Shown: piece by piece, positions 5,588 to 59,573 of the stretch | Layout: each line of letters begins with the position of its first letter | Position numbering within the stretch: the stretch's first letter is position 1 | DNA from: Anaerolineae bacterium | GTDB lineage: Bacteria > Chloroflexota > Anaerolineae > Aggregatilineales > Phototrophicaceae | Length of the DNA stretch: 64,000 nucleotides | Direction of reading: 5' to 3' | NCBI GenBank assembly: GCA_022823165.1 | Contig: JAJDXR010000068.1 | Location: 1-64,000 of the forward strand | Notes under the pieces: generated by a model | The model's input: only the letters and a program-made list of their open reading frames with translations | Database searches by the model: none | Told to the model about the DNA's origin: nothing | Position numbers and translations under genes: made by a program

Positions 5588-5666
5588 ATAAGCTCCATTC
5601 GACAAACTTTTTCGCTAGCTAGCAGTGTCGGCGCACTCAGCAATTCCGATTGGATTTGCGACACTT

Positions 5667-5836
5667 TTCCACCGAGTACAGCGAGTGAAGACGAGGGCGC
5701 CGAGTAAAGGTGATTTGCAGTCAAACGGCGGCAATTGCAATTATCGGAAGACAGATTCCGGCAAAGGTTGCGCGACCATCGAAACCATATCAATCCCTCT
5801 GTGCCCTCATTTGCCCTCTGTGTCCTCTGTGGCGAA
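5667..5836. repeat. Family B inverted-repeat element, about 170 bp
   Basis: The left end reads TTCCACCGAGTACAGCGAG; the right end reads CTCTGTGTCCTCTGTGGCGAA, whose reverse complement is TTCGCCACAGAGGACACAGAG. The ends are therefore imperfect terminal inverted repeats around an unrelated centre. Length is 170 bp, matching copies at 28907, 53577 and 59370. No coding capacity. Confidence 0.65.
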
Positions 5837-13264: not shown

Positions 13265-13514
13265 TTCGCCACAGAGACACAGAAGTAATGGCAACAAAAT
13301 AATCAGAAATGGTAGGGGCGTCCCGGTGGGTCGTCCGCATAATAGTCATACGCGGAATGATAGCAGAGGGTCAGCCACCGGCTGACCCCTACAGATTTCG
13401 ACGCGAATAGTAGCCGCGCTTCCGCCATAAGTCTTATGGTAGAAGCCGCTGCCATGGCGCTGCTAAACTGCTTTACTCGGCGTCCTCTATTTTACTCGGC
13501 GCGCTCGGCGGCAA
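13265..13514. repeat. Family B element with a nested family A insertion
   Basis: The left end TTCGCCACAGAGACACAGAAG and the right end CTCGGCGCGCTCGGCGGCAA are the inverted ends of family B. The span is 250 bp, but the stretch 13312-13392 (81 bp), bounded by GTAGGGGCG and CGCCCCTAC-like words, belongs to family A. Removing it leaves about 169 bp, the standard length of the other copies. The segment after it runs into GTGACTTACTTTG, a flank also seen beside other copies. Confidence 0.55.
13312..13392. repeat. Family A palindromes (two), nested
   Basis: Two short palindromes, GTAGGGGCGTCCCGGTGGGT at 13312 and GGGTCAGCCACCGGCTGACC at 13368, are arranged so that GTAGGGG at the left pairs with CCCCTAC at the right end. 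They resemble GTAGGGGCGAGCC/GGCTCGCCCCTAC units found at ten other sites in the window. Confidence 0.55.
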
Positions 13515-21242: not shown

Positions 21243-23024
21243 ATGAAATCCCTCTGGCGCATCTCCCGCTTCATGAAACCTTATGGCTGGTACGTCTTCT
21301 TCGGCTTTTGGACGACGGTCTTGCCGGTGGCCATGGAGCTCAGCGTACCGCGTCTGCTGCAATTTATGATCGACGAAGGCATCCGCCCGCGCCTGCTGGA
21401 CATGATTTTGCTGGGCGCTTTCTGGATGTTCATCGCCGCCATGATCGGCGCGGCCAGCACCCTGGGGCAGGGCTATTGCCGCGCGGTGGTGTCGCAGGGC
21501 GTGGCTTTCGACCTGCGACACGCCTTGTTCCGGCACATACAGTCGCTGTCCTTCGCCAATCTGGATCAGATGCAGACTGGCCGCTTGATGACGCGCGTCT
21601 CAAGCGATGTCGATGTCGTGCACATGTTCGCCAGCGCGGGTTTGGCGCTGCTGCTGCGCGTACTGCTGATGATCATCGGCAGCATGGTCATGCTGCTGCT
21701 GACCGACTGGCAGCTCTCGCTGGTTATGTTCGCCGTGGCGGGTGTATCGGCTGTTTTCATCCGCTTCCTGATGCAGCGCGCCACCAGCCTCTTCACTGTC
21801 GTGCAGCAGAAGTTAGGCGAGCTGAATACACTGGTGCAGGAGAATTTAGCCGGCATCCAGGTGGTGAAAGCCTTTGTGCGCGGCCGCTTTGAGATCGAAC
21901 AATTCTCGGCCAGCAACGACGATTACCGCGAGCGCAATATCGAAGTCGGCGTGCTGATCGCGGTGTCGATGCCGGTATTACAGCTGCTGACCAGCGTGGG
22001 AACAGTAGCTGTGCTTTGGTTCGGCGGCGTCTCCGTGATTGGGGATCGACTGACCATAGGCGAGCTGATCGCCTTCAACAACTACTTGATGATCGGCATG
22101 AGTCCGCTGCTCTTCCTGGGTCATTTGCTGTTGATGGCGGCGCGCGCCGAGTCTTCCGCCGAGCGTGTGCTGGAAGTGCTGGAGACTCAGCCGATTCTGC
22201 AAGTCGCCGCCGATGCGCACAGCGCCGAGCGGATTCGCGGGCGCGTAGTCTTCGAGAATGTGTCCTTCCATTACAGCCGCAACGGCAAGTCCAACGGCGC
22301 TGGCGGCGTCAGCGGCGACGATGTGCTGCACAGCATCAGTTTCGCGGCTGAGCCGGGCCAGCAGGTCGCCCTGCTGGGCGCCACCGGGTCCGGCAAGAGC
22401 ACCCTGGTCAACCTCATCCCGCGCTTCTATGACGTCAGCGGCGGCGCGCTGTCTATCGACGGCGTCAACGTGCGCGATTGGGAACCGGCGGCTTTGCGAG
22501 CGCGGATCGGCATGGTGCTGCAGGAGTCGACGCTATTCAGCGGCAGCGTACGCGAGAATATCGCCTACGGCGCGCCGGACGCGACGCTCGAAGCGGTGAT
22601 TGAGGCGGCGCAGGCCGCGCAAGCTCATGACTTCATCAGCGCCATGCCGCAGGGCTACGACAGCCTGGTCGAGGCGGGCGGCGCCAACCTCTCCGGCGGG
22701 CAGAAGCAGCGCATCGCCATCGCGCGCGCTCTGCTGATCCGGCCCGGCATCCTCATATTCGACGACAGCACCAGCGCCGTCGATATGGAAACCGAGTACA
22801 AGATTCAAGGCGCGCTGGCCGAGCTGGCCGCTGAGACCACGACCTTCATCATCGCGCAGCGCATCACCAGCGTACTCGGCGCCGACCAGATTCTGGTGCT
22901 TGATCACGGGCGCATCGCCGAGCGCGGTACGCATCAGCAATTGCTGGCGAGCGGCCCCATCTACCGCGAAATCTACGAATCGCAACTGGGCGAAGTCGCC
23001 CGCGCCAATGGGAGTACGCCGTGA
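21243..23024 (+). CDS. ABC exporter half-transporter, degenerate-site subunit
   Basis: 593 residues: six membrane helices (ABC transporter type-1 domain) and a C-terminal nucleotide-binding domain. Walker A is LGATGSGKST (about 378-386), the signature is the canonical LSGGQ (about 483-487), but Walker B reads ILIFDDSTSAVD, with Asp where the catalytic Glu normally stands. That substitution marks the degenerate half of heterodimeric exporters such as TM287/288. The partner gene at 23578 has the complementary pattern. The pair are parallel and would be adjacent but for an inserted GxxExxY gene. Cargo could be a drug, lipid or peptide. Confidence 0.92.
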   Translation: MKSLWRISRFMKPYGWYVFFGFWTTVLPVAMELSVPRLLQFMIDEGIRPRLLDMILLGAFWMFIAAMIGAASTLGQGYCRAVVSQGVAFDLRHALFRHIQSLSFANLDQMQTGRLMTRVSSDVDVVHMFASAGLALLLRVLLMIIGSMVMLLLTDWQLSLVMFAVAGVSAVFIRFLMQRATSLFTVVQQKLGELNTLVQENLAGIQVVKAFVRGRFEIEQFSASNDDYRERNIEVGVLIAVSMPVLQLLTSVGTVAVLWFGGVSVIGDRLTIGELIAFNNYLMIGMSPLLFLGHLLLMAARAESSAERVLEVLETQPILQVAADAHSAERIRGRVVFENVSFHYSRNGKSNGAGGVSGDDVLHSISFAAEPGQQVALLGATGSGKSTLVNLIPRFYDVSGGALSIDGVNVRDWEPAALRARIGMVLQESTLFSGSVRENIAYGAPDATLEAVIEAAQAAQAHDFISAMPQGYDSLVEAGGANLSGGQKQRIAIARALLIRPGILIFDDSTSAVDMETEYKIQGALAELAAETTTFIIAQRITSVLGADQILVLDHGRIAERGTHQQLLASGPIYREIYESQLGEVARANGSTP

Positions 23025-23041
23025 CCCGTCAACATGAAATG

Positions 23042-23081
23042 ATTTACCACCGAGTACAAAGAGGATGTTGAGGGCACCGAG
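23042..23081. repeat. Left terminal inverted repeat of the GxxExxY element
   Basis: Forty bases beginning ATTTACCACCGAGTAC. The first 16 bases are an exact inverted match to 23530-23545, and 16 of the next 24 also match the inverted right side. These are the same end sequences as the family B elements. Confidence 0.75.
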
Positions 23082-23085
23082 GAAA

Positions 23086-23499
23086 ATGAATCAGGATTCG
23101 ATAGGTATCGAAGAGTCACAGTCTCATACTTACGTCAAAGATGATTTGACGTATCGAATAATTGGGGCGGCAATGTCGGTGCATAGTGAATTAGGTCCTG
23201 GCCTGTTTGAGGGAGTTTATGAAAACGCGCTTTGTGTTGAGCTTAACAAGCGCGAGATCGGCTACCAACGCCAGAGACGCTTTCGTATACAGTACGACGG
23301 CGAGGATGTCGGTGACATGATCGCCGACCTTGTAGTAGAGGATAAAGTGATAGTGGAACTGAAATCCGTACAAGAGTTATTGCCTGTGCACGAAGCACAA
23401 GTAATTGCATATCTTAGGGCAGCCAATATGAAGACCGGCCTCTTGATCAACTTCAACGTCCGTTCGCTCAAATCAGGAATCAGGCGCATCAGTGTTTAA
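23086..23499 (+). CDS. GxxExxY protein (PD-(D/E)XK nuclease-like)
   Basis: 137 residues. The family-naming motif G-L-F-E-G-V-Y is present (ELGPGLFEGVYENAL), followed by a strand pair ending in IADLVVEDKVIVELKSV, where D...E-x-K fits a PD-(D/E)XK nuclease core (the Pfam family is PDDEXK_3). Tail: AQVIAYLRAANMKTGLLINF..SGIRRI. Biochemical role is unknown to me. The start at 23086 follows GAGGAAA. Base use is clearly more AT-rich than the flanking ABC genes, a sign of foreign origin. It is enclosed by imperfect 40-bp terminal inverted repeats with 16 perfect outer bases, and sits between the two genes of an ABC exporter, which looks like an insertion. Confidence 0.85.
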   Translation: MNQDSIGIEESQSHTYVKDDLTYRIIGAAMSVHSELGPGLFEGVYENALCVELNKREIGYQRQRRFRIQYDGEDVGDMIADLVVEDKVIVELKSVQELLPVHEAQVIAYLRAANMKTGLLINFNVRSLKSGIRRISV

Positions 23500-23505
23500 G
23501 CTTTT

Positions 23506-23545
23506 CTCTGTGTCCTCATCTAACTCGGTGTACTCGGTGGTAAAT
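23506..23545. repeat. Right terminal inverted repeat of the GxxExxY element
   Basis: Reads CTCTGTGTCCTCATCTAACT and ends GTACTCGGTGGTAAAT, the inverted partner of 23042-23057. It begins seven bases after the GxxExxY stop codon, so the gene fills almost the whole interior of the element. Confidence 0.75.
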
Positions 23546-23577: not shown

Positions 23578-25404
23578 ATGAGCAACCAGCGCGGTTCAGC
23601 GCAGCGCTCGCGCGGCATCGGCGGGCATGGGCGCCCAACCGGCGAGAAAGCCAAAGACCGGCGCGGCGCTCTGCGGCGGCTGGCGGTTTACCTCAAGCCT
23701 TATCACGGCCGGCTCGTCTTGGTCGCTGTGCTGGTGGTCGTGGCCACGCTCTTCGGGCTGATCGGCCCGGCGCTGCTGGGGCGGGCTATTGACCAATATG
23801 TCGCCCACCACGACCTGGAGGGCTTGCTGCAGATCTCGCTGATTATGCTGGGCGTCTACCTGGCGCAGGGAGTCTTCACGGCGATGCACGGCATCATCAT
23901 GATACGTATTGGCCAGTATTTCGTGGCTGATATCCGTTCGTCGCTCTTCCGGCATTTTCAGGCGCTGTCGATGGATTATCATGACCGGCATCGCACCGGC
24001 GACTTGATGAGCCGCATTTCCAACGACAGCGAGACCATCAATCAGATTCTCTCCAACGGTTTGATCCAATTCACCACCAATATCTTGTCTCTGGGCGGCA
24101 TCATGGTGGCGATGCTGCTGCTGAACCTGCCGCTGGCGGTTGGTACGCTGATCATCTTGCCCATCATGCTCTGGATCACCTCGCAGATTACGGAGCGGAC
24201 GCGCAAGTCCTTCCGCGGCATGCAGAAGAATCTGGGCTGGATGAACGCGGTCATGGAAGAGAATATCACCGGCATCCGCGCCGTGCAGGCTTACGCCCAG
24301 GAAGATGCGGCGATTGAGCAATTCCAGCAAGCCAGTTGGGCTTATCGCAAGTCGGCTATCCGCGCTGTCTTCATCACCGCGGCGCTGGGACCCATGTTCA
24401 CCACCATGATGATCCTCACCGTGGCGGCGACCTCGCTGCTGGGCGGCTGGCTGGCGCTGCAGGACATCGTCACCGTGGGCGTGATCGCGGCATTCGTGGT
24501 CTATATCATGAACTTCTTCCGGCCCATGCGCGGCATCGCCATGGTCTACAATCAGTTGCAATCGGCTCTGGCCGGCGCCGAGCGCATCTTCGCTGTGCTG
24601 GACGCGACGCCGTCCGTCACCGACGCGCCTCATGCTCTGCCGCTGCGGGATATTCGCGGCGCGGTCAGTTTCGAGGCTGTCGGCTTCGCCTATGAGCCGG
24701 GCGAGCCGGTGCTGGAAGACATCAGCCTGGAGGTGGCGCCCGGGCAGACGGTGGCGCTGGTGGGGCCGACCGGCGCCGGCAAGACCACCATCATCAGCCT
24801 GCTCAGCCGCTTTTACGATGTCAGCGCGGGCAGTATCCGCATCGACGGGGTGGACATCCGCAGCGTCATGCAAGATTCCATCCGCGAGCAGCTGGGCATC
24901 GTCTTGCAAGACACCTTCCTGTTCAGCGGCGCCGTCATGGAGAATATCCGTTACGGGCGCTTGGACGCGAGCGATGAAGAAGTGATTGAAGCGGCGAAAC
25001 TGGCCAACGCCGACGATTTTATCCATCTCTTGCCGCGCGGCTACCAAACGCAAGTCTCGGAAAAAGGGCATAACTTCAGCCAGGGCCAACGCCAACTGCT
25101 GGCGATCGCGCGCGCTATCCTGGCTGACCCGCGCATTCTAATCCTGGATGAAGCGACCAGCAGCGTCGACACCCGCACCGAGATCCATATCCAGGAGGCG
25201 CTGCTGCGGCTGCTGGAAGGGCGAACCGCTTTCGTCATCGCCCACCGGCTCAGCACCATCCGCAACGCCGACCAAGTGCTGGTGATTAACGATCATCGCA
25301 TCATTGAGCGCGGCAGCCACGACCAATTGCTGGCGCAGGGCGGCTTTTATCATAAGCTGTATTTGAGCCAGTATCATCGGCTGGCGGAGTTAGCGGCGGT
25401 CTAG
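23578..25404 (+). CDS. ABC exporter half-transporter, catalytically complete subunit
   Basis: 608 residues with a six-helix membrane domain preceded by a basic N-terminal tail. Walker A is VGPTGAGKTT (about 395-403), Walker B is canonical (ILILDEATSSVD) and the H-loop is AHRLST. The signature is FSQGQ instead of LSGGQ. Combined with the neighbour at 21243, one ATP site would join this Walker A/B to the partner's good LSGGQ, and the other would be doubly degenerate, exactly the pattern of heterodimeric exporters. The ATG follows CAGGAG by seven bases. It ends 13 bases before the amidohydrolase gene, which may be read through. Confidence 0.92.
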   Translation: MSNQRGSAQRSRGIGGHGRPTGEKAKDRRGALRRLAVYLKPYHGRLVLVAVLVVVATLFGLIGPALLGRAIDQYVAHHDLEGLLQISLIMLGVYLAQGVFTAMHGIIMIRIGQYFVADIRSSLFRHFQALSMDYHDRHRTGDLMSRISNDSETINQILSNGLIQFTTNILSLGGIMVAMLLLNLPLAVGTLIILPIMLWITSQITERTRKSFRGMQKNLGWMNAVMEENITGIRAVQAYAQEDAAIEQFQQASWAYRKSAIRAVFITAALGPMFTTMMILTVAATSLLGGWLALQDIVTVGVIAAFVVYIMNFFRPMRGIAMVYNQLQSALAGAERIFAVLDATPSVTDAPHALPLRDIRGAVSFEAVGFAYEPGEPVLEDISLEVAPGQTVALVGPTGAGKTTIISLLSRFYDVSAGSIRIDGVDIRSVMQDSIREQLGIVLQDTFLFSGAVMENIRYGRLDASDEEVIEAAKLANADDFIHLLPRGYQTQVSEKGHNFSQGQRQLLAIARAILADPRILILDEATSSVDTRTEIHIQEALLRLLEGRTAFVIAHRLSTIRNADQVLVINDHRIIERGSHDQLLAQGGFYHKLYLSQYHRLAELAAV

Positions 25405-28906: not shown

Positions 28907-29071
28907 TTGCCACAGAGTATAAAGAGTGTTCTTGAGTACGCAGAGGGTTGCATTATCTTATGCTCGCGCAAGTTGCGCAGCCGGCCAGGAAATGGACATG
29001 GTCGCCGCCAAACAGCGCTTAAATTGCTTTACTCTGTGTCCTCTCTTTTTACTCGGTGTACTCTGTGGCAA
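28907..29071. repeat. Family B inverted-repeat element, 165 bp
   Basis: The outer 13 bases TTGCCACAGAGTA at the left are repeated exactly in inverted form (TACTCTGTGGCAA) at the right. Further in, the right side carries CTCTGTGTCCTCTC and CTCGGTG, as in the other copies. The interior has no gene. The right flank continues TCTTTTGCATGGCTTAC, resembling the flank at 59541. Confidence 0.7.
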
Positions 29072-53492: not shown

Positions 53493-53814
53493 CGTAATTT
53501 CCCTTAATAATCAGGTCTGCATTCAGCCTGAGTGTAACCCTGTGGCCACAGTCACTACAATCGCTTTAGAACATTATTACCATCGAGTACACCGAGAAAA
53601 TAGAGTACACCGAGAAAAGCCGATACTGAACGTTAAACAACTGCGACGCTTGTCGCATTCTGTAGACTACAGATATTTGGCTGAGATCGAAATAACATTG
53701 ATACCTCTGTGTCCTCAATGCTACTCGGTGTACTCGGTGGCAAGATGTCGATTGTCTCTTTGTCATTCCATGCGGCATCATACTGCGGCGATTGACGAGG
53801 ATAGGCCTTCGCCC
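53493..53814. other. Intergenic stretch mostly occupied by a family B element
   Basis: 322 bases without a gene. The family B copy takes 53577-53743. The remainder shows nothing I can name. Confidence 0.4.
53577..53743. repeat. Family B inverted-repeat element, 167 bp
   Basis: Left end TTACCATCGAGTACACCGAG, right end CTCGGTGTACTCGGTGGCAA: reversed, the two differ at only two of 20 bases. A second internal GAGTACACCGAGAAAA on the left and CTCTGTGTCCTCAATG on the right are typical of the family. Confidence 0.75.
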
Positions 53815-59304: not shown

Positions 59305-59573
59305 TCCTTTTCCTTCTCAGTCAGTTCAGGAGAGCGATGCAAATTTCGTCTAAATGACTGCGATATGTTTTGCCACAGAGGGGCGCGTAGACACTGCCCT
59401 TCGGCGCAGAGGTTTCAATTTCGTTTCGATGCTCTCGCTAATTGCGGCGCTATCCGTACTTCTGAAAGCTTTCGCTGCCATAAAGCCACATAAATGCTTT
59501 ACTCTGTGTCCTCATTTTTTCTCGGTGTACTCGGTGGCAAGTTTTTGCATGACTTAGGCGGTCCTGCTGCTGC
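59305..59573. other. Intergenic stretch with a family B element and a cassette
   Basis: No gene. The family B copy at 59370-59540 carries a GCGTAGACAC cassette just inside its left end. The right flank continues GTTTTTGCATGACTTAG. Confidence 0.4.
59370..59540. repeat. Family B inverted-repeat element, 171 bp
   Basis: Left end TTGCCACAGAG, interrupted by a 25-base cassette (GGGGCGCGTAGACACTGCCC followed by TTCGG); right end CTCGGTGTACTCGGTGGCAA with CTCTGTGTCCTC further in. The inner part has no coding capacity. Confidence 0.65.

Follow-up and report, generated by a model that had tools for sequence, protein, structure and literature searches.

The segment at 23042–23545 of the window, by which we mean the whole 64,000-nucleotide stretch of DNA analyzed here, is probably a member of a widespread two-part selfish unit, composed of a lone gene for a RecB/Cas4-type nuclease and of paired terminal word arrays, and moved by the nuclease itself. 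The gene belongs to the GxxExxY family, to which, to our knowledge, no role has been assigned. Taken together, nuclease and repeat have the look of a minimal mobile element of a type not yet described.

The source genome, from an Anaerolineae bacterium, is a 4.1-Mb draft in 94 contigs. The sequence ATTTACCACCGAGTAC at 23042–23057 has its perfect inverse at 23530–23545, as the first-pass annotation had read for the outer 16 bases, and the longer ends, which it had matched at 32 of 40 positions, agree at about 35 of 44 aligned positions. The 500-bp core (23044–23543) consists of the GxxExxY gene and its inverted ends, TTACCACCGAGTAC.... Rather than simple repeats, these ends are arrays in which the 7-bp word CACCGAG, accompanied by CACAGAG and degenerate variants, recurs at a pitch of about 9 bp. 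The gene starts within the left terminal repeat and encodes 144 aa from the ATG at 23065; the length of 137 residues first given for it holds from a later ATG. Its assignment to the GxxExxY family was confirmed by profile matches of 150.5 bits to TIGR04256 (cut-off 35) and 148.7 bits to PF13366. With 46.7% GC it is indeed more AT rich than the two ABC genes on either side (62.4% and 61.4%) and than the window (60.7%). The features of the window are the following, with hairpin strength given as a z value.

23042–23545, plus strand: whole gene-bearing element, with perfectly inverted 16-bp tips
23044–23085, plus strand: left terminal repeat, TTACCACCGAGTACAAAGAGGATGTTGAGGGCACCGAGGAAA, with units at a 9- to 10-bp pitch
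23501–23543, minus strand: right terminal repeat, TTACCACCGAGTACACCGAGTTAGATGAGGACACAGAGAAAA (sequence given for the minus strand)
23065–23499, plus strand: GxxExxY gene (TIGR04256/PF13366), 144 aa, predicted RecB/Cas4-type PD-(D/E)XK nuclease
21243–23024, plus strand: upstream ABC half-transporter gene, the host gene of the insertion site
23578–25404, plus strand: downstream ABC half-transporter gene; where the insert is absent, its overlap with the upstream gene is 8 bp
5666–5835, no strand assigned: 170-bp gene-free element whose ends are of the same kind
28907–29071, no strand assigned: gene-free element, 165 bp, hairpin z −3.6
53577–53743, no strand assigned: gene-free element, 167 bp, hairpin z −5.2; at this position, relatives carry either another element or a remnant
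59368–59540, no strand assigned: gene-free element whose left arm is interrupted; two close relatives lack the entire insert
13495–13514, minus strand: single end of a decayed element

The window thus contains gene-free copies that share these ends, although they number about five and not about six as first counted. Hairpin folding is strong in two of the three paired gene-free copies (z −5.2 and −3.6) but not in the third (z −0.5). The 11-mer CCACCGAGTAC occurs five times in the window for 0.02 expected, and the exact 17-mer CCACCGAGTACACCGAG of the right end 55 times genome-wide, for no occurrence of its reversed control. All three GxxExxY matches of the source genome, one of them a fragment, lie between such repeats: the copy on contig 39 has its own variant ends, CCACAGAGGCACAGAGACACAGAG, and the one on contig 90 is a decayed fragment between CACAAAG/CACAGAG repeats. 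Around these sites of the source genome we recovered 32 end pairs, all 120–500 bp apart, and the sole recognized gene between them is GxxExxY; none of these pairs is therefore of transposase size. By eye, no consistent target-site duplication was seen at the 32 paired elements, whose junctions are blurred by interspecies divergence, and neither a transposition event nor an excision product was seen in the genomes compared.

Other repeats are intertwined with these copies. A homogeneous 195-bp family of the source genome was considered as proof of GxxExxY activity and dropped: its flanks are also conserved, so the family rides in a larger repeat. It has CACCGAG ends and conserved flanks GCTTCAAAATAATCT and AATTTCAGTTTAGTT (loci L002, L005, L026, L037, L048, and others of G000), and, since it is often found at contig ends, is a probable cause of assembly breaks. 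In several elements, the middle has given way to a separate dispersed repeat, GTAGGGGCGACC...GGTCGCCC (48521 region of the window; ABC site of G018, G012, and G003).

The packaging of GxxExxY genes between matching inverted repeats extends to at least four bacterial phyla. We collected 141 GxxExxY loci from relatives of the source genome, from samples of the phylum and of Bacteroidota, and from named genomes and plasmids. In each, the 300 bp to either side of the gene were searched for inverted repeats and the best one was scored, with 206 positions in the same loci as controls. Scores above 15, taken as strong, were obtained for 98 of the 141 loci (70%) and for a single control (0.5%), with medians of 18.5 and 9.5, respectively; in Bacteroidota alone, 17 of 29 loci and none of 58 controls exceeded the threshold. 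Many of the roughly 30% of loci below it still show periodic words. The self-identity of the arms peaks at lag 9 (0.43, vs. about 0.24 at distant lags). The words themselves vary with the lineage: CACCGAG, CACAGAG, CACAAAG/CACGAAG, CGCGAAT, CACAGAT/CGCAGAT, GGAATT, and GGATTT. Matching ends were found, for instance, in Gemmatirosa of the Gemmatimonadota (CGCAGAG), in Bacteroides finegoldii and Bernardetia (CACAGAG), in Sphingomonas parapaucimobilis (CGCGAAG), and in Mucilaginibacter (GAATT words). Other GxxExxY genes hence do lie inside such ends, and many copies with and without the gene exist in the source genome and in other repeat-rich genomes, as the mobility proposed in the first-pass annotation implied. 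The surroundings of the gene are unrelated from one locus to another, and genomes carry 1 to 12 copies. Among plasmid records only eight matched GxxExxY, and none of the phage records did.

The end word follows the clade of the GxxExxY protein, even within one genus. End types were given by word to 67 loci, by hand from alignments, which is a weakness of this comparison. On a 76-protein tree they change 17 times, vs. 41 times on average and never fewer than 34 in 1,000 shuffles. Within the genus of the window (26 loci) we counted three changes for 12.1 in the shuffled sets (minimum 8), and the three changes persist, for 11.1 (minimum 7), once the three ABC-site orthologues are removed. Two Chloroflexota proteins, L158 and L160, nest in the Bacteroidota clade and have Bacteroidota-like GATT ends, as joint travel of gene and ends would predict.

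Repeat-rich genomes carry GxxExxY, and none of the sampled noncarriers is rich in the repeats. Our Chloroflexota sample comprised 151 genomes across the phylum, 33 with GxxExxY and 118 without. At least 10 matches to the pattern CCACVRAGNNCACVRAG were found in 15 of the 33 carriers (12 to 351 each) and in none of the 118 noncarriers, where the maximum was 4 (Fisher P = 5.8e-12); in Bacteroidota, the unchanged pattern reached at least eight matches in 13 of 101 carriers and none of 97 noncarriers (P = 1.7e-4). Both P values overstate independence, as the sampled genomes are related; carrier versus noncarrier contrasts nevertheless recur in several families. A second word pattern gave at least 45 matches in 14 of the 151 genomes, all carriers, with a cut that was chosen after the fact, the noncarrier maximum being 41. 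In one family, five carriers have 232–351 matches and a noncarrier has one. Likewise, in one genus, 268 matches accompany an intact gene, two and four are found without the gene, and none with broken or divergent copies. Abundant copies of the searched patterns are lacking in 18 of the 33 Chloroflexota carriers and 88 of the 101 Bacteroidota carriers.

By its residues and predicted fold, GxxExxY is a putative RecB/Cas4-type PD-(D/E)XK nuclease. The G, E, and Y of the motif are invariant in 70 alignment rows. Positions G44, E49, Y52, D88, E98, K100, Q112, Y116, N129, and F130 are invariant or nearly so, with E49, D88, E98, and Q112 invariant and K100 and Y116 near-invariant. D88, E98-x-K100, and Q112-xxx-Y116 supply the catalytic D, ExK, and QxxxY which, together with the E, we take to be the signature of RecB/Cas4-type enzymes. 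The AlphaFold model (pLDDT 90.9) has as its closest solved fold the Cas4 protein SSO0001 (VIA Z 10.5, with a Foldseek E value of only 1.8e-3), followed by lambda exonuclease, MGME1, Hjc, Dna2, and the AddAB nuclease domains. No solved structure related by sequence was found, the best hit (E 1.2) being unrelated.

In one Chloroflexota group, the domain occurs in another setting. In locus L258 (1981–3669; G072:C20), it is fused in frame to the N terminus of PurM, right after purD in a pur operon. Similar open frames of 528–571 aa are present in G112, G088, G089, G104, and G198; the frame was read in L258 alone, and the similar lengths suggest that the GxxExxY–PurM fusion is kept in these related genomes.

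The junction of the two ABC genes was compared across 30 species of the genus of the window. Six species, forming one clade, have no insert, and their ABC genes overlap by 8 bp, so that the operon is uninterrupted there; the junction is also empty in G042, the most divergent congener. An apparently intact element was found in 12 species, a broken GxxExxY gene in five, and repeat remnants alone in six. Judging by these states, the insertion is old and mostly vertically inherited. It was either gained early, to the exclusion of the empty clade, or cleanly lost later in that clade, depending on where the genus tree is rooted. Among the 13 clearly decayed or repeat-only states, 12 are scattered on the tree. 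The surviving genes are under purifying selection, with dN/dS values of about 0.05–0.15 for the closest pairs. The element has also been exchanged: between G013 and G046, identity is 93% in the flanking genes and 86% in the noncoding linker, vs. only 70% in the element, and the G013 element is closer (81%) to that of a more distant species. This indicates replacement of the cassette between unchanged flanks. Away from the ABC site, the gene-free insert at 59368 is missing in two close relatives, which leave gaps of about 8–12 bp. In G047 and G048 (L103 and L101), the gene-bearing element at the ABC site is immediately preceded by a gene-free one, and the site has one or two additional right-end copies with the spacer AAAAGGAAAACATCTCTCTGTGCCCTCGAAAAAACTCGGTG.

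The idea of a mobile unit, put forward from the window, is thus upheld by the empty sites, the many copies, and the repeats around other GxxExxY genes, but the ABC site records an old, mostly vertical insertion and no recent jump. Its second part, a small nuclease that moves or is moved with the repeat, agrees with their linkage and co-occurrence; the choice between mover and rider is inferred from that co-occurrence and from the match of end and protein types.

Gene-free copies take several forms in other genomes. In G150, of the repeat-rich genus g50, they are hairpins of about 60 bp in intergenic gaps (z −4.9). Beside the CACGAAG hairpins of this genome (odd-numbered loci from L193 to L221), we observed a further periodic repeat, ACATAGAGCATAGAACATAG, and its complement, perhaps also a word type akin to those of the GxxExxY ends. 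G174 contains head-to-tail tandem arrays of a 157-bp unit that resemble clustered REP elements. At L303 (G174:C1:1244000–1245250), palindromic elements of about 157 bp follow one another head to tail with GAAAGAT between copies, and L302 (221–2428; G174:C1:1517520–1519727) consists of 23 tandem copies of a 96-bp unit with CACAGAGAG words at its start and end. As part of the repeats of G174 lie within larger units that have CACTGCAAAAA at their ends, more than one process contributes to copy number. Given such composites, the 195-bp family included, other enzymes may amplify part of the repeat count, and the transposases of REPIN/RAYT systems, that is, REP-associated tyrosine transposase systems (PMC3116915, PMC2817692), may contribute to it as well.

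That GxxExxY acts on its own ends and spreads them is the simplest account of the linkage, the clade-matched ends, the dependence of abundance on the gene, the empty sites, the conserved active site, and the lack of any other enzyme between the ends. Each terminal inverted repeat has three to four copies of the 7-bp word at a pitch of about 9 bp. The nuclease would bind its own word array, probably as several copies along one DNA face or as a hairpin of exposed single strand, and would cut at or near the ends; host repair or replication would then restore the unit and copy it at a new site. Gene-free palindromes of 60–170 bp that retain the ends would be non-autonomous copies moved in trans by the resident nuclease. 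With one word per protein lineage, several systems could coexist in one genome. The unit at 23042–23545 probably entered the ABC exporter operon, at an intergenic point, in an ancestor that much of the genus shares; it has since been inherited, has decayed in many species, and has been swapped for a different cassette in at least one. We propose more tentatively, at slightly less than an even chance, that GxxExxY may be the sole element-encoded mobilizing enzyme of a new class of mobile elements, distinct from DDE, HUH, serine, and tyrosine enzymes and from Cas1, which would recognize arrays of 7-bp words and drive hundreds of gene-free palindromes in several phyla.

The main rival is a passenger or homing role, in which ordinary miniature elements are moved by an unseen transposase and GxxExxY is their cargo, or a homing nuclease landing in the repeats. 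The nesting of some repeats in larger composites with unrelated outer ends would fit such a role, the cassette replacement at the ABC site looks like an exchange through the ends, and clade-specific ends are also expected under homing. However, it predicts repeat-rich genomes without the gene, and there was none among the 118 Chloroflexota and 97 Bacteroidota noncarriers; moreover, the source genome has no end pair of transposase size, and the empty ABC sites hold no repeat awaiting invasion. We regard this role as unlikely, and slightly more so a host function, according to which GxxExxY would be a chromosomal nuclease for DNA processing or defense and the word arrays would serve it as sites of regulation or recognition, having spread through gene conversion and recombination and not through transposition. 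The ABC-site gene is old and vertically inherited, as a domesticated gene would be, which counts against a selfish unit; strong purifying selection, long retention at one site, the in-frame fusion to PurM, and the predicted Cas4-like fold point the same way. Yet frequent decay to remnants at the ABC site, with its scattered states, is typical of selfish DNA, as are the unrelated neighborhoods, the 1 to 12 copies per genome, and the gene-free copies by the hundreds. As for inverted ends produced by chance or by assembly, which a draft in 94 contigs might raise, the pattern recurs in single-contig and complete records of several phyla, and the carrier association and the comparison of the 141 loci with their controls refute an artifact, whose probability we consider negligible.

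GxxExxY genes occur in half of the sampled Bacteroidota genomes and in a fifth of the sampled Chloroflexota genomes, and a lineage-matched repeat gives the protein a testable substrate. The units described here may be the origin of a large class of short palindromes in intergenic gaps that lack an explanation (words of the CACAGAG, CACGAAG, CGCGAAT, CACAGAT, and GGAATT types). Should the nuclease move the repeats, PD-(D/E)XK enzymes of the Cas4/RecB branch would be among the few enzymes able to found a mobile element on their own; should it only home into them, the partnership of nuclease and repeat is still an undescribed one. In open-access PMC text, GxxExxY is mentioned only in passing, PF13366 likewise as far as titles tell, and the end sequences, among the matches listed, only in unrelated papers. 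No description of a GxxExxY-repeat system was found in that text, in line with the initial impression of novelty.

Like insertion sequences and MITEs, these elements place a gene between terminal inverted repeats and have shorter gene-free copies with the same ends as well as empty sites. Unlike insertion sequences, they carry no DDE, HUH, serine, or tyrosine recombinase between their ends and measure 500 bp in all. Inspection of the paired elements by eye showed no consistent target duplication. The predicted fold (Z 10.5 to Cas4 SSO0001, then lambda exonuclease, MGME1, and Dna2) and the E, D, ExK, and QxxxY residues link GxxExxY to the Cas4/RecB/lambda-exonuclease family; in contrast with that family, it is tied to its own terminal repeats and does not neighbor cas genes, and, unlike many Cas4 proteins, it is a stand-alone protein of about 120–140 aa without the iron–sulfur cysteine pattern. 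Precedents for nucleases outside the usual classes acting at element ends are TnsA of Tn7, a PD-(D/E)XK enzyme, and Cas1 of casposons. The element described here contains neither Cas1 nor a DDE partner such as TnsA requires. The REPIN/RAYT systems (PMC3116915, PMC2817692) differ in their enzyme, a Y1 HUH transposase rather than a RecB/Cas4-type PD-(D/E)XK nuclease, and in their ends, a REP hairpin with a tetranucleotide tag rather than 7-bp words at a 9-bp pitch. As the only gene bracketed here is of the PF13366 family, without the defining Y1 HUH transposase, the element is not a REPIN/RAYT member. It shares with these systems a gene that lies between palindromic repeats and is generally present in few copies per genome, the many dispersed gene-free palindromes in intergenic gaps, the tandem clusters, the long vertical persistence, and the match of the repeat type to the lineage of the gene.
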